This document shows positions 6,726-18,698 of a stretch of 20,076 nt of DNA, piece after piece (the stretch's first letter is position 1; every line of letters begins with the position of its first letter). The DNA comes from a virus. Under the pieces are notes generated by a model. The model made no database searches. It saw only the letters and a program-made list of their open reading frames with translations, and was not told the DNA's origin. Where the stretch lies: positions 1-20,076 of the IMG/VR virus record IMGVR_UViG_3300050015_000053; one strand, written 5' to 3'. Both the position numbers and the translations under genes were made by a program.

Positions 6726-9700
6726 TCAATTTACTTGCCAAGAAACGCTGCTCACATCCGTAGTCGCAATGGTATCCGTCGCGGTCAGGGAGTTGATAAC
6801 AAAGCTGCTTCCCGCGCTGATCGTTCCAACGCTCAAATTTCCTATGACCACGCTAGAGTTGGTAGCATAGCGAGTTAGAGAATAATGGCAACTGCTGCTG
6901 ACAGCGCAGGCCGCTGTCGAGTTCACCGTGACCGTACCAGAGACGAGGGTCGCGGTGCCACTGATACTCGTAGTCACATACCCCGCCGCTGGACCCTGAT
7001 AGCCGAGAGCCGTCAAGGGAATGACTGGGCCGTTGGCGTTGAACAGTGAGCCGAAATAATACGTTCCGGTTGTCGTTGAATTGCCTAGTGTCGTTGTGTT
7101 GCTGCCGTGGCCGATGGCGGTGTTTCCGATTACATTTTCGTTCGTATCGCCAGAGGCAAGCGGATAGGCTTGAAAGCCCTCATAAAGCGAGTTGCTGCTG
7201 GTTTGATTGGCGGTTACGCCCCCCGCGATGTATTGTCCCGCCGCGTACCCATTCGCGGTGTTGCTGGAGCCGGTGGTGTTGGCTTGGAGCGCATACATCC
7301 CATTCGCGGTGTTGTCGATGCCGGTGGTGTTAGAGAAGAGCGCATACATCCCATTCGCGGTGTTGTTGCTGGAGCCGGTGGTGTTGTCGTAGAGCGCATA
7401 CATCCCATTCGCGGTGTTGTTGCTGCCGGTGGTGTTGTCGTTGAGCGCCCGAAACCCATTCGCGGTGTTGCTGGAGCCGGTGGTGTTGGCTTGGAGCGCA
7501 TACATCCCATTCGCGGTGTTGTCGATGCCGGTGGTGTTAGAGAAGAGCGCATTCACCCCATTCGCGGTGTTGCCGGAGCCGGTGGTGTTGGCGTAGAGCG
7601 CCTGATACCCATTCGCGGTGTTTTGGGAGCCGGTGGTGTTGACGTTGAGCGCCGCGTACCCATTCGCGGTGTTGTAGGAGCCGGTGATGTTGGCTTGGAG
7701 CGCATGCATCCCATTCGCGGTGTTGCTGTTGCCGGTGCCAGTCAGGTTTCCCGCTCCACCAGAGTAGTAGTTATTGAGTGATGTCTGCGCCTGGAGAGCA
7801 GGAACCCCATTTAACAAAACACCGTTCGATCCTATAGTCGTTGGTGTCGCAGCGCCAGCCGCGACGGTGCCGGAGAATGTTCCGTTGACCGCGCCGGTTA
7901 GGGAGCCAGCATGAAGGGACGCCGTGCCGTCTGTGATGGTCGCGCCCTGGACCGTGCCTGGGAACGCACTCACCTGCGACGACGTGCCCAGCGTTCCCGT
8001 CTGCGTTACGCCGGTGATGGCAAGGTTCGCTCCCGCTGCGGTGGTTGCGCCCGTGCCGCCCGACGCCGGAAGCAATGGTGATCCAAGCGTCTCACTGCCC
8101 GCCGCGACGGCGCCTGAGAACGATGCGCTGGTGCCATTGAGTGCGCCGTTTTGATAGAGTATGCCGTTGATGTATGTGCCAACCGTGGCCGTGTTTCCGA
8201 TTGTCGTTGTGTTGCTGCCGTTCCCAACTGCTCCGTTGCCAATTACATTTTCATTCGTATCGCCAGAGGCAAGCGGATAGGCTTCGTAGCCCTCGTACAC
8301 TGAGCTACTGCTAGTCTGATTGGGTGTTGCGCCATCCGCGATGTATTGTCCCGCCTGGACCCCATTCGCGGTGTTGTTGCCGCCGGTGGTGTTGAAGTAG
8401 AGCGCCGCAAGCCCATTCGCGGTGTTGTTGCTGCCGGTGGTGTTGGAGTAGAGCGCCTGAAGCCCATTCGCGGCGTTGTTGCTGCCGGTGGTGTTGAAGT
8501 AGAGCGCCTGAAACCCATTCGCGGTGTTGTTGTAGCCGGTGGTGTTGGAGTAGAGCGCCTGAAACCCATTCGCGGCGTTGTTGTTGCCGGTGGTGTTGTA
8601 GAAGAGCGCCGCAAACCCATTCGCGGTGTTGTTGTTGCCGGTGGTGTTGAAGTAGAGCGCCGCGTACCCATTCGCGGTGTTGCTGTTGCCGGTGGTGTTG
8701 GCGTAGAGCGCCTGATACCCATTCGCAGTGTTGTAGTAGCCGGTGGTGTTGAAGTAGAGCGCCTGAAACCCATTCGCGGCGTTGTTGTTGCCGGTGGTGT
8801 TGAAGTTGAGCGCATTCACCCCATTCGCGGTGTTGCCGGAGCCGGTGGTGTTGGCGTAGAGCGCCGCGTACCCATTCGCGGTGTTGCTGTTGCCGGTGGT
8901 GTTGAAGTTGAGCGCATTCACCCCATTCGCGGTGTTGCCGGAGCCGGTGGTGTTGGCGTAGAGCGCCTGATACCCATTCGCGGTGTTGCTGGGGCCGGTG
9001 GTGTTGGCGGAGAGCGCCTGAAACCCATTCGCAGTGTTGTAACTGCCGGTGGTGTTGGCGTAGAGCGCCTGATACCCATTCGCGGTGTTGCTGGGGCCGG
9101 TGCCAGTCAGGTTTCCCGCTCCACCGGAGTAGTAGTTATTTAGCGATGTCTGTGACTGGAGAGCGGGAACCCCATTTAACAAAACACCGTTCGATCCTAT
9201 AGTCGTTGGTGTCGCAGCGCCAGCCGCGACGGTGCCGGAGAATGTTCCGTTGACCGCGCCGGTTAGGGAGCCAGCATGAAGGGACGCCGTGCCGTCTGTG
9301 ATGGTCGCGCCCTGGACCGTGCCTGGGAACGCACTCACCTGCGACGACGTGCCCAGCGTTCCCGTCTGCGTTACGCCGGTGATGGCAAGGTTCGCTCCCG
9401 CTGCGGTGGTTGCGCCCGTGCCGCCATTGGCGGTTGGAACGATACCTGCTGCGACAGCCAGTGAGGGTGTAGTCGTTGGATTTGTCACGGTAGGCACTAG
9501 CCATGAAGGCCATGAGCCGGAGGGTGCAGAGACATTAGTCACACTGCCTTCTGCGGCTCCAATAGCGTCCGGCACACCGCTCACGCACACATACATCTGC
9601 GTATTCGGCCATCCTGCCAAAAATACCGGCAATGATCCTGAGCAAGTTGTAGGCACCGTCGGATACGACACCAGTCCGCCATAGCTCGGATTCACGACCC

Positions 9701-9890
9701 ACTGCCATGCCAGATTGTAGTAGCTGCACGTATAGACCGTCGCAGGGCTGGTGCCTGTATTCGTGTAGAGAGCACCCGCGTTTGCAGATGTGCAATAGGG
9801 AGGCGGCGGCGGAGTGTTGCCGCTCGTCTGCGCATGGATGGGGAAAGCCATGCAACCGAGAAAAATTAGTGCTGCAAATATCCGCTTCAT
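6726..9890 (-). CDS. Secreted repeat-rich fibre/adhesin-like protein with duplicated module
   Basis: This 1054-residue protein lies in the tail fibre position. The N-terminus is a typical signal peptide (K2-R3, hydrophobic core, cleavage after IHA at residue 20). A small domain follows with four cysteines (C33, C55, C83, C102). Then come a linker (about 156-265), fourteen full 17-residue repeats of type NTANGxxALxxNTTGxx (to about 510), and a cap with ENVIGNGAVGNGSNTTTIGN. A second copy follows: linker (about 611-720), nine repeats, cap, and a C-terminal Thr/Ser/Val-rich domain. The repeats recall beta-solenoid heads of trimeric adhesins and phage fibres. AAGGAGA precedes the ATG. It may be a virion fibre or a secreted host-surface adhesin; the export signal favours the latter. 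Confidence 0.75.
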   Translation of the reverse strand: MKRIFAALIFLGCMAFPIHAQTSGNTPPPPPYCTSANAGALYTNTGTSPATVYTCSYYNLAWQWVVNPSYGGLVSYPTVPTTCSGSLPVFLAGWPNTQMYVCVSGVPDAIGAAEGSVTNVSAPSGSWPSWLVPTVTNPTTTPSLAVAAGIVPTANGGTGATTAAGANLAITGVTQTGTLGTSSQVSAFPGTVQGATITDGTASLHAGSLTGAVNGTFSGTVAAGAATPTTIGSNGVLLNGVPALQSQTSLNNYYSGGAGNLTGTGPSNTANGYQALYANTTGSYNTANGFQALSANTTGPSNTANGYQALYANTTGSGNTANGVNALNFNTTGNSNTANGYAALYANTTGSGNTANGVNALNFNTTGNNNAANGFQALYFNTTGYYNTANGYQALYANTTGNSNTANGYAALYFNTTGNNNTANGFAALFYNTTGNNNAANGFQALYSNTTGYNNTANGFQALYFNTTGSNNAANGLQALYSNTTGSNNTANGLAALYFNTTGGNNTANGVQAGQYIADGATPNQTSSSSVYEGYEAYPLASGDTNENVIGNGAVGNGSNTTTIGNTATVGTYINGILYQNGALNGTSASFSGAVAAGSETLGSPLLPASGGTGATTAAGANLAITGVTQTGTLGTSSQVSAFPGTVQGATITDGTASLHAGSLTGAVNGTFSGTVAAGAATPTTIGSNGVLLNGVPALQAQTSLNNYYSGGAGNLTGTGNSNTANGMHALQANITGSYNTANGYAALNVNTTGSQNTANGYQALYANTTGSGNTANGVNALFSNTTGIDNTANGMYALQANTTGSSNTANGFRALNDNTTGSNNTANGMYALYDNTTGSSNNTANGMYALFSNTTGIDNTANGMYALQANTTGSSNTANGYAAGQYIAGGVTANQTSSNSLYEGFQAYPLASGDTNENVIGNTAIGHGSNTTTLGNSTTTGTYYFGSLFNANGPVIPLTALGYQGPAAGYVTTSISGTATLVSGTVTVNSTAACAVSSSCHYSLTRYATNSSVVIGNLSVGTISAGSSFVINSLTATDTIATTDVSSVSWQVN
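7248..7736 (-). repeat. 51-bp tandem repeat array, distal block (9 full units plus a terminal one)
   Basis: Units begin with the conserved CCCATTCGCGGTGTTG (plus-strand sense) at 7248 and recur to 7710. The spacing is nine units, eight of 51 bp and one of 54 bp (9 x 51 + 3 = 462). They encode NTANGxxALxxNTTGxx. The 54-bp unit carries an extra Asn codon (SSNNTANG). Variation is concentrated at the paired x positions. Confidence 0.9.
7731..8060 (-). repeat. 330-bp direct repeat, copy 2
   Basis: This segment is repeated at 9096-9425 with a constant offset of 1365 bases. About the last 240 bases look identical, with a handful of substitutions in the first 80 or so. It encodes the linker GGTGATTAAGANLAITGV... 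through NNYYSGGAGNLTG of the fibre protein, marking an in-frame duplication of a 455-residue module. Confidence 0.9.
8361..9099 (-). repeat. 51-bp tandem repeat array, proximal block (14 full units plus a terminal one)
   Basis: The unit core CCCATTCGCGGTGTTG (plus-strand sense) recurs from 8361 to 9075 at an exact 51-bp period (714 bases, 14 periods). Some units carry a GGCGTTG variant that changes Thr to Ala (NAANG). The encoded repeat is NTANGxxALxxNTTGxx, with Tyr, Phe, Val, Leu, Asn and Gln alternating at the variable pairs. Confidence 0.9.
9096..9425 (-). repeat. 330-bp direct repeat, copy 1
   Basis: This is the first-encoded copy of the linker segment found again at 7731-8060. After it (plus-strand direction) the two copies diverge abruptly at the CCGTGCCGCC boundary, which gives a sharp edge to the duplication. 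Confidence 0.9.
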
Positions 9891-14836: not shown

Positions 14837-15564
14837 CAATCACTTATCCCTAATACACCTTTGATCCATGTTGCTGCTTGGTGTAACGTTCCTGAAGATG
14901 GAGTGGAGGGTTGTACCTGCCCACTGCTTGTTGCAGGCGCGGCGGATGGTGATTGCGGCGTTGGTGTCACATTCTTCTTTCCGGGAGTCGCGGACGATGG
15001 GACCGGAGCTACACTTCCAGGCGTGTTTGCATACGATAGAGTGACCTGCTTTACCTCTTCCAGCATCACGTCAATCAAGAGCATTGTCGCTCCCTTGTTC
15101 GACATTCTCCGGTATGAATATCGTGCGATGGTGTAGCCGTCGTACTCCGTGTCGGGAGTAAACACATTCCATAAAGACGTTCCAAGACAAGCAGTTTCCA
15201 GAGCATCCAACAGGCTCGATTTATCCGATATGCTTCCGCTAAATGCGAGAGTCACAACTGGGTTAGCTGGGGTCCAAATCTTGTCATAACTAGTGAATGA
15301 ACCAGTCTCAACCGGGAACGTAGAAACGGTACTCTGTCGAGAGTAATCAAAAGAATAAGTTGAAAGCGATCCGCCTTCGCTCGGCGTAAACAATGGAGAA
15401 TTGTCTGTAGCTGAAAATATCCCCCATATCGGATCCTGCGATGAAATGACTAAAGGCTGGTTTGAAGCCAAACTTATGTTGATCGATGGACTTCCCGCCG
15501 ATGTACGCGGAATGGACGGCACACCGGGATAATTTGGGACATCGGGATAGGGTATAGTAGGCAT
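14836..15564 (-). CDS. Dit-like baseplate/tail protein
   Basis: This 242-residue protein contains FDYSRQSTVSTFPVETGSFTSYDKIWTPANPVVTLAFSGS and LLDALETACLGTSLWNVFTPDTEYDGYTIARYSYRR, followed by ATMLLIDVMLEEVKQVTLSYA. These are the hallmarks of Dit-like phage proteins: S-F--YDK, then TPD-EY and a closing EEV strand. A Pro/Ser/Thr-rich linker and a short helix form the C-terminus. The start at 15564 makes a TGATG with the tape measure stop; the alternative TTG at 15603 would overlap more. The protein should form the ring between tail tube and hub. Confidence 0.8.
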   Translation of the reverse strand: MPTIPYPDVPNYPGVPSIPRTSAGSPSINISLASNQPLVISSQDPIWGIFSATDNSPLFTPSEGGSLSTYSFDYSRQSTVSTFPVETGSFTSYDKIWTPANPVVTLAFSGSISDKSSLLDALETACLGTSLWNVFTPDTEYDGYTIARYSYRRMSNKGATMLLIDVMLEEVKQVTLSYANTPGSVAPVPSSATPGKKNVTPTPQSPSAAPATSSGQVQPSTPSSGTLHQAATWIKGVLGISD

Positions 15565-17330
15565 CACAGTGACCCCGAATTGGCTGGACTCACTGTCAGC
15601 CAATCCATATTCCGGCTCATATCCTTCCAGATACTTTGAGCGTCTGTCGCCAGGGTGTGGATGTCGATATGTCCAAAATGGTTTGTTACGCTCCTGTCAA
15701 TCGACGAAACCTGCGATCCCGCTGTCGGGAAAGGTCCACGGAGCGTCGAAGATGCTGAAGGAATCCCGATAACCGGGCTAGGATTCGCGGCTCCTGATAC
15801 TTTTCCCGTCTGCCATTTACTTAGCGTTTGCGCATCGTTCAATCCGGCATAAGACTTGCTCTGTAGAAGTGCGTACATCGCACTCCACCCGGTCCCTTCG
15901 TCGGGAAATACGGCAATCTGCTTTCCGCCCTGTGCGGTTTTGTATCCAGTCGCTCCATGGTCAACGGCGAACTTCCCGTACTCAATATCTCCGGGGTTAT
16001 GGGCCTCTTGTGGGATGTTTGGACTTTCACCCTTCGCATAGAACCCTTCAGCATTGGCTATCTTTTGCCCACGTGCGCGAGTCTCGTCCGATACGCCATT
16101 AACCTTGACCCCCGCCTCTCCCCATAGAGTCATGTTATTCCACCACCACTTCAACCCCTTTTTAACCGCTCCTTCGGGTACGTTGACCCCCTGGGAACGC
16201 AACCAGTTCTCAAATCGTTCTGTCGCATCCTCGATTCTGTCCCCCAGCCATTTGAAAGCGTCTCCCGCCTTGCGGATGTTGCTCTCAAACTGGCTCCAAT
16301 CGAACAGGCTGGCCCCGCCATGGCTCCAGGAAGAGTAATCCAAGGTAAGGCCCGTAAAAGCCGCTGCGAGGGCTGCTATGGCCGCTACAACGAGCAGGAT
16401 GGGGCCTGAGATTTCAATCGTGGAAAGGAATAATACCCCCATCGCCACACTCACCGCTCCGATTCCAGCCGCAAGCGCCGCCATGAAGGCCGCTACCGCG
16501 GTTTGATGGGCAAGGCACCAATTCAGCCCACCCTCTAACAAAGCAAAGAATTTCTCCAAAATCGGCGTAACGGTTTCGAGGAGTTCGTACCCCAGCTTAT
16601 TGAACTGCGCATGGAGAAGCGCAAGCTGCATAGTCATCTGCGCGGCACTGGAAACATTCTGATTCGTGGGAGAGAGCTTTCGCGCCTGCTCTAACATCGC
16701 CGCAAATTGACGGGGGTTCTCGAAAAGAAGATTGGCAACTCCAGTAGGCATACCGGCCTGTTGGAACCATGCAAACACCTGTTCGCGGTTCTTTCCCTGC
16801 GCCCACTTCGCCATGTCTTGAAGTTCATCAAGGGCAGACCGAGCTTTACCCTTGCTGTCGATCATGGCAACGCCCATCTTCCCTAAGATTGGAATGAGCG
16901 AAGAACCAAGGCCATTTGAAAGATTCAGGCTTTCGGTTGCCAGATGAGCAATGTATCCCTGCATCTCTTGTGCAGACCCGCCCACCATCGTAGAGGCGAT
17001 TCCCCACGCTGACAATGCCTGCACGGGGATGTTTAGATTTTTCGAGAGAAAACCAAGCTGTGTGTTTGTTGCAATCGCTTGCATCGTGAACTGGCGCAAT
17101 GCAACAGTTCCGCCAATCAACGCAAGGAACGCGGCCATCTTCCCGGCAAGAGAGGTAAGTTCCTCCCCTGTGCCCTTAGATGCCTTGGAGATTCCGCTGA
17201 TTCCCTTGCTGGCCGAGTCTCCGCTTTTTTCAAGGTCTTTAAGTTTCTGGCGAACGCCGGGAGCCTTCGCATCTACATCCTTCGTGTCGAGCGAAAGTGA
17301 TACTATGAGGCTGTCAATTAATGTGGGCAA
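15564..17330 (-). CDS. Tail tape measure protein (TTG start)
   Basis: This 588-residue protein begins LIDSLIVSLSLDTKDVD, typical of tape measures, and continues as helix with LKDLEKSGDSASKGISGISKAS. Hydrophobic segments lie near residues 62-80 and 275-330 (FMAALAAGIGAVSVAMGVLF, GPILLVVAAIAALAAAF). The C-terminal third holds a domain with NAEGFYAKG, AHNPGDIEYG and IAVFPDEGTGWSAMYALL, reminiscent of lysozyme-like NPGN domains in phage structural proteins. The only usable start is TTG at 17330 (AGAGG upstream); an in-frame stop lies seven codons before it. It overlaps the end of the homing endonuclease gene. At about 0.15 nm per residue the tail would be roughly 88 nm. Confidence 0.88.
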   Translation of the reverse strand: MPTLIDSLIVSLSLDTKDVDAKAPGVRQKLKDLEKSGDSASKGISGISKASKGTGEELTSLAGKMAAFLALIGGTVALRQFTMQAIATNTQLGFLSKNLNIPVQALSAWGIASTMVGGSAQEMQGYIAHLATESLNLSNGLGSSLIPILGKMGVAMIDSKGKARSALDELQDMAKWAQGKNREQVFAWFQQAGMPTGVANLLFENPRQFAAMLEQARKLSPTNQNVSSAAQMTMQLALLHAQFNKLGYELLETVTPILEKFFALLEGGLNWCLAHQTAVAAFMAALAAGIGAVSVAMGVLFLSTIEISGPILLVVAAIAALAAAFTGLTLDYSSWSHGGASLFDWSQFESNIRKAGDAFKWLGDRIEDATERFENWLRSQGVNVPEGAVKKGLKWWWNNMTLWGEAGVKVNGVSDETRARGQKIANAEGFYAKGESPNIPQEAHNPGDIEYGKFAVDHGATGYKTAQGGKQIAVFPDEGTGWSAMYALLQSKSYAGLNDAQTLSKWQTGKVSGAANPSPVIGIPSASSTLRGPFPTAGSQVSSIDRSVTNHFGHIDIHTLATDAQSIWKDMSRNMDWLTVSPANSGSL

Positions 17331-18099
17331 ATTGAGCCTCTTTTCTCATCTGCGCATATTGCCTATTTTTGCCCGCAGATATGCGAGCTTTCCATTCATC
17401 TGAAAACGCGGGGCGCTTTCTTCCCTTTAGAGAAGCAGCTCTCTTCTCTCTTGTCTCTACCGATTGCGTTTTTCCTAAATGAGACAAAGATAGATTCTTT
17501 CTAGTCTCAATAGAACGCTTCTGACCTCGATTAGAGGCTGACAGTTGTGCTCTTGTTTTCGCAGATACAATGTGACCCTTGAGAGATTCTGATCTCTTGG
17601 CTATTGTCTCTTTAGATTGAGGCCCAAATTTTTTCCCCTTTTTGGTAGATGGCTGGCCACGTCTCGACTCGGACATCTTCCTTTTTGATTCTGCGGAATG
17701 ATGTTTCCCTTTCATCGGATGACCATCTTTAGCTAGTTGAGCTTTGGTGAGGGAAGACAGTTTAGACCTTGTTTCCCCGGAATGCACAAGACCTGATTGG
17801 CCCTCGCCGCCTAACGTCAGGTTGTAACCGCGTCCTAGGGGAGCAAAGGTTTCATATACTGCAATGAAGTGCTTTTCGAGATCATTGAGTTGATGAATCT
17901 CGCAGGATGCGATCTCAACTATAGAGAAATTGTGGACGCCATATTTACGCATTGCGGCATGGAGCGCATAGGCAGACCCGATTTTAGATTGTGTTTTATG
18001 TTGCGAAAATCGGAGTGATACAGATTTCTCAGTCTTGCCAATATAGGCTTTCCCGTTGAGAAGGTTACGAATTAGGTAGATGTAACCTTTCGTGGGCAT
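17314..18099 (-). CDS. GIY-YIG homing endonuclease with NUMOD3 repeats
   Basis: This 261-residue basic protein begins GYIYLIRNLLNGKAYIGKT (residues 5-23), the GIY-YIG nuclease core. Catalytic Arg is at R30 (SLRFSQH) and Glu at E75 (LNDLEKHFI), closing with GYNLTLGGEG. The rest is a chain of about six NUMOD3-like units (SAESKRKMSESRRGQ, SKETIAKRSESLKG, SAKTRAQLSASNRGQ, SIETRKNLSLSHLGK, SVETREKRAASLKGRK), which bind DNA. The gene is visibly more AT-rich than its neighbours, as expected for an acquired mobile gene. It starts three bases after the chaperone frame ends and overlaps the tape measure start by 17 bases. It is free-standing; no intron is evident. Confidence 0.92.
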   Translation of the reverse strand: MPTKGYIYLIRNLLNGKAYIGKTEKSVSLRFSQHKTQSKIGSAYALHAAMRKYGVHNFSIVEIASCEIHQLNDLEKHFIAVYETFAPLGRGYNLTLGGEGQSGLVHSGETRSKLSSLTKAQLAKDGHPMKGKHHSAESKRKMSESRRGQPSTKKGKKFGPQSKETIAKRSESLKGHIVSAKTRAQLSASNRGQKRSIETRKNLSLSHLGKTQSVETREKRAASLKGRKRPAFSDEWKARISAGKNRQYAQMRKEAQFAHIN

Positions 18100-18102
18100 G
18101 GC

Positions 18103-18264
18103 CTATTCCCTCTCGTTCGCTGAATCTACGGCGCAAATCTCAAGAAGATTATGGGCATCCTCCTCGCCGTAGATCGTTTGCAATTCATGTAGCGTCGCCA
18201 ATCTCCGCCCAACTATGACCCCGATGATCTTGGGGACATTCGCGTACCCGGCTTGTGCTTTAGC
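18103..18264 (-). CDS. -1 frame extension of the tail assembly chaperone (frameshift product)
   Basis: The -1 frame relative to the gene at 18213-18698 continues past its stop and encodes about 52 residues: VPKIIGVIVGRRLATLHELQTIYGEEDAHNLLEICAVD. The LHELQTIYGEEDAHNLLEI segment is typical of the T-like part of phage G/GT chaperone pairs. The frame is open from 18342 but its first codon there (GTG) has no ribosome site, so expression by frameshifting is the better reading. The fused product would be about 198 residues and would bring the tube and tape measure together during tail assembly. Confidence 0.75.
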   Translation of the reverse strand, partial: AKAQAGYANVPKIIGVIVGRRLATLHELQTIYGEEDAHNLLEICAVDSANERE

Positions 18265-18698
18265 GCCCCCAGCGTGGTGCCGAGCGATTCCGAGAGGCCG
18301 GCGGCAAGAGAAAAATCCAGGTGAAGTTTCAGGACCTCCCACTTGAGTGTGAGCAGTGTTTTTACTTCCTCGACTTGACTCTCAAAAAGCGGATATCCTA
18401 CCTTGACCTGCGGCTTCTGGAGATTCGGAACAAACTCAACGCACTCCATCAATTCGGCGAGTAGCGGCCTGATTGCAGTAGAGGAAATGGCGAACAGTTT
18501 CTTGAGACCGATTTCTGCAAGCGCCGCCATGCCCAACTCTAAAGCTCCGTCGGGAATCTCCACGTTAGCCGCTCCAAGAGCAAGCATCACACGGATTGCC
18601 CAATCCTCAGCTTTCGTCGCTGGCATTTCAGTGAGCAGAAAAGATTTTCCCTTGTCTCTGCCCTCCGAGTCTACCGTGTACGTCGATGTTTTGCGCAT
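18213..18698 (-). CDS. Tail assembly chaperone, short (G-like) product
   Basis: This 161-residue protein lies between the tube and tape measure genes, where tail assembly chaperones always occur. It starts RKTSTYTVDSEGRDKGKSFLLTEMPATKAEDWAIRVMLAL, a pattern shared with chaperones of contractile phages. The core is helical and it ends with an out-of-frame tail (ALKHKPGTRMSPRSSGS). ATG is preceded by the strong site AAGGAGATC. The last 50 bases overlap the -1 frame extension. The chaperone function is inferred from position, pattern and the frameshift arrangement. Confidence 0.82.
   Translation of the reverse strand: MRKTSTYTVDSEGRDKGKSFLLTEMPATKAEDWAIRVMLALGAANVEIPDGALELGMAALAEIGLKKLFAISSTAIRPLLAELMECVEFVPNLQKPQVKVGYPLFESQVEEVKTLLTLKWEVLKLHLDFSLAAGLSESLGTTLGALKHKPGTRMSPRSSGS
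18258..18270 (-). other. Candidate -1 ribosomal slippage site
   Basis: In the overlap of the two chaperone frames the message reads CTG GGG GCG CTA AAG. Slippage by -1 could occur at the five-G run (18266-18270; P-site GGG re-pairs perfectly) or at A AAG (18258-18261; AAG re-pairs to AAA). Neither is the canonical lambda heptamer GGGAAAG, so the exact site is uncertain. Confidence 0.45.

Follow-up and report, generated by a model that had tools for sequence, protein, structure and literature searches.

Free-standing homing endonucleases of phage T4, such as the Seg enzymes, spread by intronless homing with co-conversion, and the available portions of one account put the gene and the cleavage site of T4 free-standing endonucleases hundreds or thousands of bp apart and describe endonuclease genes that carry their neighbours' promoters, which favours retention (PMC2988022). 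Mobile ORFs in Glomus mitochondria (atp6, atp9, cox2, nad3) carry a diverged C-terminus of the gene, according to the part of the source available (PMC3630166). Further, tape measure genes are known targets of homing endonuclease genes (HEGs) in ICP1-like phages, as described in the accessible part of that report (PMC10448857).

Here we analyse a GIY-YIG/NUMOD3 endonuclease gene at the junction between the tail assembly chaperone (TAC) and the tape measure protein gene (TMP) of a soil phage, represented by a virus record of 20,076 bases (the window, meaning this whole stretch). The reading that we prefer, with a probability of roughly 0.75, is intronless homing of a cassette in which a free-standing GIY-YIG enzyme would travel together with a cleavage-resistant gene edge.

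The endonuclease gene and its junction

On the minus strand of the window, the order is the upstream frame of the tail assembly chaperone (18213..18698; phrog_1932, E=6e-41), the chaperone frameshift extension ORF (18103..18342; phrog_3976, E=2.4e-13), the GIY-YIG ORF (17314..18099, 261 aa) and TMP (15564..17330, 588 aa; PHROG tape measure families). The two chaperone frames overlap at 18213-18342, the expected place of a programmed frameshift. The frameshift ORF stops at 18105-18103, three bases separate it from the endonuclease, and the endonuclease overlaps TMP by 17 bases (17330-17314), with the TMP start, TTG, at 17330; a first-pass annotation of the DNA had placed both ends of the gene exactly so. 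Position 18099 is the earliest possible start downstream of a stop in the endonuclease frame. Elsewhere in the window, a minus-strand gene at 6726-9890 encodes a 1054-aa product, probably a tail fibre or adhesin-like protein, in which a nearly invariant NTANGxxAL repeat recurs many times.

The same annotation had named the ORF an AT-rich GIY-YIG/NUMOD3 homing endonuclease gene, and database searches confirm the name. Pfam matches to GIY-YIG (PF01541; E=5.2e-10, 39.9 bits against a cut-off of 22.6) and, in the same ORF, NUMOD3 (E=6.4e-11) both exceed the curated cut-offs, and the 261-aa product matches a PHROG 'homing endonuclease' family (E=5.4e-37). Its GC content is 44.8%, compared with 54.5% over the whole window, and of 386 equally long sliding windows none has so low a value. 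The nuclease domain occupies residues ~4-84 and is followed by NUMOD3-type repeats. Y8, Y19, R30, H34, E75 and N93 are invariant in an alignment of nine endonuclease sequences, and Y8, Y19, R30, E75 and N93 correspond to the catalytic Tyr/Tyr/Arg/Glu/Asn set of I-TevI. Confidence in the AlphaFold2 model is low for the full chain (mean pLDDT 62) and better in the nuclease part (73-88 over the first 70 residues), and its top Foldseek matches are the I-TevI catalytic domain structures 1mk0 (E 4.5e-4; TM 0.75 by target) and 1ln0 (E 5.9e-4). The nuclease part is accordingly predicted to adopt an I-TevI-like fold, and from the sequence we infer that the 261-aa protein has nuclease activity. Between the two allele types, pS is 0.77 and pN 0.13 over residues 1-158, indicating strong purifying selection. 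A group I intron or intein is ruled out, because a search for self-splicing introns with Rfam gave no match across 8 sources (85,572 bases) and both neighbour genes are intact and uninterrupted; the gene is free-standing.

A DNA pattern composed of the chaperone extension end and a start codon was found in 40 viral contigs, and all the relatives compared are metagenome contigs. The junction is empty in 30 of these and holds a full endonuclease gene in three (L020, L021, L044) and an internally deleted copy in three more (L005, L022, L035); three contigs end inside the gene (L004, L026, L049) and one (L029) ends too early to be read. The site thus shows an insertion polymorphism, with 9/40 contigs occupied or carrying a remnant. 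These counts agree with the earlier statement that chaperone and tape measure are normally adjacent, relatives lacking the gene are available for comparison of the junctions, and ancestry of the gene in all relatives is not borne out. One further match, to the genome of a Myxococcales MAG (L052), was taken as a chance pattern match, with 0/7 window proteins matched. The chaperone|TMP junction of L131, which represents a distantly related third lineage (49% identity), likewise contains a GIY-YIG gene.

Start-codon capture and a replaced tape measure head

In empty relatives such as L011, the junction reads GAGAGGGAATAGGCC-ATGCCCACA..., and the ATG belongs to TMP. In the window, the same bases lead into the endonuclease (ATGCCCACGAAAGGT), so that the TMP start of empty relatives is the endonuclease start here. 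The ribosome-binding site GAGAGGGA (18107..18114, minus strand), inside the chaperone frameshift ORF, is identical in L011 and the window, with an anti-SD pairing of -6.9 kcal/mol in both; it is used by TMP in the relatives that lack the insert and by the endonuclease in the window. The insert has captured the original start codon and ribosome-binding site of TMP. Translation of TMP in the window restarts within the last codons of the endonuclease (TTGCCCACA), whose 3' end holds a new ribosome-binding site, AAGAGG (17337..17342, minus strand; anti-SD pairing -5.8 kcal/mol). Comparison of the L011 and window junctions places the 7-bp repeat TGCCCAC at both edges of the insert, the left copy (18092..18098, minus strand) in endonuclease codons 1-3, which match the first three TMP codons in L011 and other empty relatives, and the right copy (17323..17329, minus strand) in TMP codons 1-3 of the window. 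An alternative arrangement is seen in L044, in which the endonuclease stop overlaps the TMP ATG as TGATG.

The head of the window's TMP is replaced over codons 1-15 (17286..17330, minus strand; TTG start; LPTLIDSLIVSLSLD). Against empty L011, 17/45 positions mismatch in TMP codons 2-16 and 14/132 in codons 17-60, and the first ~15 codons are unlike those of every empty relative read. The borders are sharpest between filled L044 and empty L038, a near-isogenic pair whose nearest upstream mismatch lies 1158 nt away: there are 20/45 mismatches in codons 2-16, against 0/132 in codons 17-60 (Fisher 2.6e-14). Thirteen codons of this head are changed, nine synonymously and four nonsynonymously. Similarly, filled L021 differs from L038 at 16/45 and 1/132 positions, respectively. 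The changed tract lies within ~50 bp of the insert, and no second, native TMP head was found beyond the insert in the junction alignment. The supplied head is diverged as DNA and little changed as protein. It had been proposed that the insert avoids both the frameshift unit and the tape measure. The extension ORF is intact beside the insert; avoidance of the tape measure is not supported, since the insert sits on the original TMP start, with its ribosome-binding site taken, and about 15 codons are replaced.

Two filled head types encode an identical altered peptide (LIDSLIVSLSLD) with 10 synonymous codon differences and different starts, which suggests that endonuclease and head have probably long been linked. 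A TMP-head profile search returned 80 loci, with the TMP start readable in 79 (L091 starts inside the gene); head LIDSLIVSLSLD is limited to 6/79, precisely the six with an insert or remnant, where the occupancy call covers the 70 loci other than the 9/79 with no chaperone motif found nearby. At L048:9749, the TMP junction is empty and the first half of the head, MPILIDSLIVTLGLD, is like the filled head; this is possibly a scar of precise loss via the TGCCCAC repeat.

The cassette also occurs in several backbones. The L022 backbone is 27% different from the window upstream (63/237 mismatches), yet it carries the window's 3' cassette, with 5/249 mismatches in the 3' part of the endonuclease gene, 0/40 in the TMP head and 15/59 beyond. 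The L021 endonuclease (L021:4378-5163) is a chimera: its 5' part equals that of L044 (0/474), its 3' part and TMP head equal those of the window (0/295 and 0/45), and 58/135 mismatches follow. The break near nt 4852 of L021 (about window 17625) has NUMOD3-type repeats on both sides, and the DNA-binding half thus moves together with its TMP head. The combination of endonuclease 3' end and TMP head is common to three different backbones.

Decayed copies complete the series. The deletions in L005 (99 aa) and L035 (96 aa) preserve the reading frame and show a 7-base microhomology, and the L022 deletion is out of frame. Contigs L004, L026 and L049 terminate at or close to the joints of the deletions and the chimera, which suggests that intact, deleted, chimeric and empty junctions may coexist within a sample. 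The deletions remove catalytic Glu75 and Asn93, and the endonuclease 3' end with the new TMP ribosome-binding site is retained in 3/3 deleted copies. Assembly artefact was rejected for the deletions and for the L020/L021 chimera, as the joints share only ~7 and ~6 bases, probably too short for k-mer assembly; also, the recurrence of similar deletions in L005 and L035 and of the chimera in L020 and L021 speaks against it.

Probable homing and competing explanations

TMP is essential for tails, and a carrier must therefore supply a working head. Under homing, the endonuclease would probably cut within the first ~45 bp of TMP in phages without the insert, and double-strand-break repair from the carrier would copy in the endonuclease ORF together with the diverged TMP head. 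That head would probably remain uncut, protecting the carrier from its own enzyme, and the insert would be retained because the translation start of TMP now sits within it. Spread by homing, as suggested in the first-pass annotation, fits the near-isogenic empty and filled junctions and the presence of one cassette in diverged backbones. The annotation had suggested cleavage at the empty junction; start capture and the ~15 replaced codons point to the TMP head, not the bare junction, as the likely cut site. Matches to CNNNG, which we take to be an I-TevI-type motif, start at TMP nt 32-34 in 8/9 empty head types and in 0/2 filled types tried; this contrast stems from one Gly-to-Ser change and is treated as a lead.

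The junction could instead be a module border at which phage recombinases swap endonuclease and head by ordinary homologous recombination, with no cut involved. We consider this unlikely, although the borders do coincide with conserved sequence (GAGAGGGARTAGRCC upstream, TMP codons 17-26) and head blocks are swapped among empty phages too. Among TMP pairs <5% diverged in codons 17-60, with a divergent head defined as >=20%, heads diverge in 27/27 filled-empty pairs, one of them identical upstream over >1.1 kb, against 21/58 empty-empty pairs; these pairs are not independent and share few independent events. Such swaps hardly occur in the six genes used as controls, at 2/105 close pairs in the chaperone (TAC) and 0/101 in five other tail genes (0/21, 0/20, 0/34, 0/18 and 0/8). 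The same test gave 11/104 for gp32, all involving one mosaic (L042), and 4/16 and 3/7 for the genes at the sites called D and C below. A separate run of 47 heads (40 empty and 7 filled, with L092 among the latter too short for pairing), to which the 33 more distant of the 79 did not belong, was in agreement: pairs <1.1% apart downstream had heads >=20% apart in 21/21 filled-empty and 2/31 empty-empty cases. The swaps among empty phages weigh against a simple homing reading; the chaperone-TMP junction may be a general recombination border, or they may record past homing.

Recombination at a single border also has to be set against the recurrence of the pattern at other endonuclease sites, on either side of the insert. 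A diverged edge of one neighbour gene lies beside an endonuclease at four other tail junctions (B, C, D and E). Related GIY-YIG/NUMOD3 genes of the same phage family occupy three of them (L017:1235-1846, L025:7327-8049, L042:9804-10388), site B preceding the sheath gene and sites C and D lying at two more junctions between tail genes. In the latter two, the endonuclease begins exactly on the start codon of the next gene, and the head of that gene is changed, with 21/45 mismatches against 57/552 downstream and 0/300 upstream (left) at D (L042 vs L017), and 19/45 against 46/321 at C (L025 vs L013); the right flanks at both sites are not near-isogenic. At B, the insert adjoins the stop of the upstream gene and not the sheath start, and L047 differs from L031 at 9/14 positions in the last 14 nt of that gene, against 0/135 before them and 0/45 on the right side. 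Site E, between sheath and gp32, holds an ORF (L028:1415-1984) called HNH-like by eye, with no Pfam or PHROG match backing HNH. There, L028 and L038 differ at 29 positions in the last 90 nt of sheath and at none in the preceding 510 nt or in gp32, and the changed tract is the last ~75 nt of sheath. The diverged edge is thus the next gene's head at C and D and the upstream gene's tail at B and E; this switch of side, like the lack of near-isogenic right flanks at C and D, counts against the homing reading. As a universal rule, the idea that the HEG starts with its target's first codons was rejected: the match is exact at the chaperone|TMP junction (site A), the shared bases are ATGAGC at D and ATGAAC/ATGAAT at C, and the B insert is at the stop of the upstream gene.

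A different nuclease family also targets the chaperone|TMP junction. In L125, which belongs to another phage group and has relatives (L111 etc.) with no insert there, an antisense endonuclease VII/HNH-like ORF of 230 aa (L125:1764-2456, minus strand) lies at the junction. It was not counted as support for a cassette, as its TMP head is unchanged (1/48); the chaperone tail has 7 mismatches in its last 30 nt, but relatives vary just upstream too.

Far less probable is a rewriting of the head that followed insertion and adapted it to the new site of translation initiation (mRNA structure, TTG start or coupling), rather than one that served to escape cleavage. The start context of TMP has indeed changed, to TTG with a 17-nt overlap in the window and to TGATG in L044. 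However, both allele types have the same altered protein head, LIDSLIVSLSLD, despite their different starts, and what has changed at B and E is the upstream gene's 3' end, which lies apart from the downstream start. Because the changed edge can be on either side, a cut site accounts for it more readily than TMP translation does. That the full gene or its short in-frame remnants (96-99 aa) now serve as a useful phage protein, such as a regulator of TMP expression, agrees with two of the deletions being in frame but is scarcely credible given that 30/40 relatives do without the endonuclease, the third deletion is frameshifted and the catalytic residues are lost.

More tentatively, and with somewhat less than an even chance in our judgement, the homing reading may extend to a natural 'home-and-rescue' rule for phage tail modules. 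Under such a rule, at least two endonuclease families would insert at tight junctions, take over the start codon of the following gene if space is lacking, and bring along a rewritten edge (14 to ~75 bp) that makes the essential gene under attack proof against cleavage. This edge would mark the cut site and its side, so that comparing genomes would be enough to locate cut sites.

Comparison with known systems

I-TevI has a NUMOD3 segment and is intron-encoded, whereas the endonuclease here is free-standing and has several NUMOD3-type repeats. The two are alike in predicted nuclease fold and catalytic residues (PDB 1mk0, 1ln0). Invasion, recombination and decay are displayed together in this phage family. 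If the homing reading is right, near-isogenic pairs would offer a simple predictor of the cut sites of free-standing phage endonucleases, and the loss of such endonuclease genes would be difficult because the start of an essential gene lies within them, at the very end that decayed copies preserve.

The rescue in home-and-rescue gene drives is recoded, and the locus would be a natural counterpart of such a recoded-rescue drive. Like the synthetic drives, it would combine a cutter and a rescue at an essential target gene; the drives use engineered Cas9, whereas this system is natural and its rescue is deduced from sequence comparison, as judged against the available part of the source (PMC7968924).

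Within the partial texts covered by a literature search, no account of such a cassette in phages was recognised, which is weak evidence of novelty. As in the ICP1-like phages, endonuclease genes occur at tape measure genes as borders of genetic exchange; the accessible part of that report describes an ICP1 tape measure gene split by an HNH HEG, with a spliced transcript, whereas the insert here is intronless and TMP is uninterrupted (PMC10448857). The likeness to T4 Seg, so far as the available portions of the account go, covers a GIY-YIG nuclease, an intergenic position beside an essential gene, patchy presence and co-converted flanks (PMC2988022). In both cases, signals of the neighbour are embedded in the endonuclease gene, promoters in T4 and a ribosome-binding site and start codon here. 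Unlike in T4 Seg, the changed tract abuts the insert (14 to ~75 bp), the cut site being a prediction, and the insert takes the neighbour's own start codon (PMC2988022).

The closest analogue, as far as the available part of the source describes it, is the set of fungal mitochondrial mobile ORFs, in which an endonuclease likewise comes with a diverged edge of an essential gene that completes that gene (PMC3630166). In the fungal ORFs, a C-terminus is supplied and the native end is kept downstream, whereas here the cassette provides an N-terminal head (at B and E, the tail of the upstream gene) and no native edge remains. What is new at this locus is the capture of the start codon together with a rewritten N-terminal edge.
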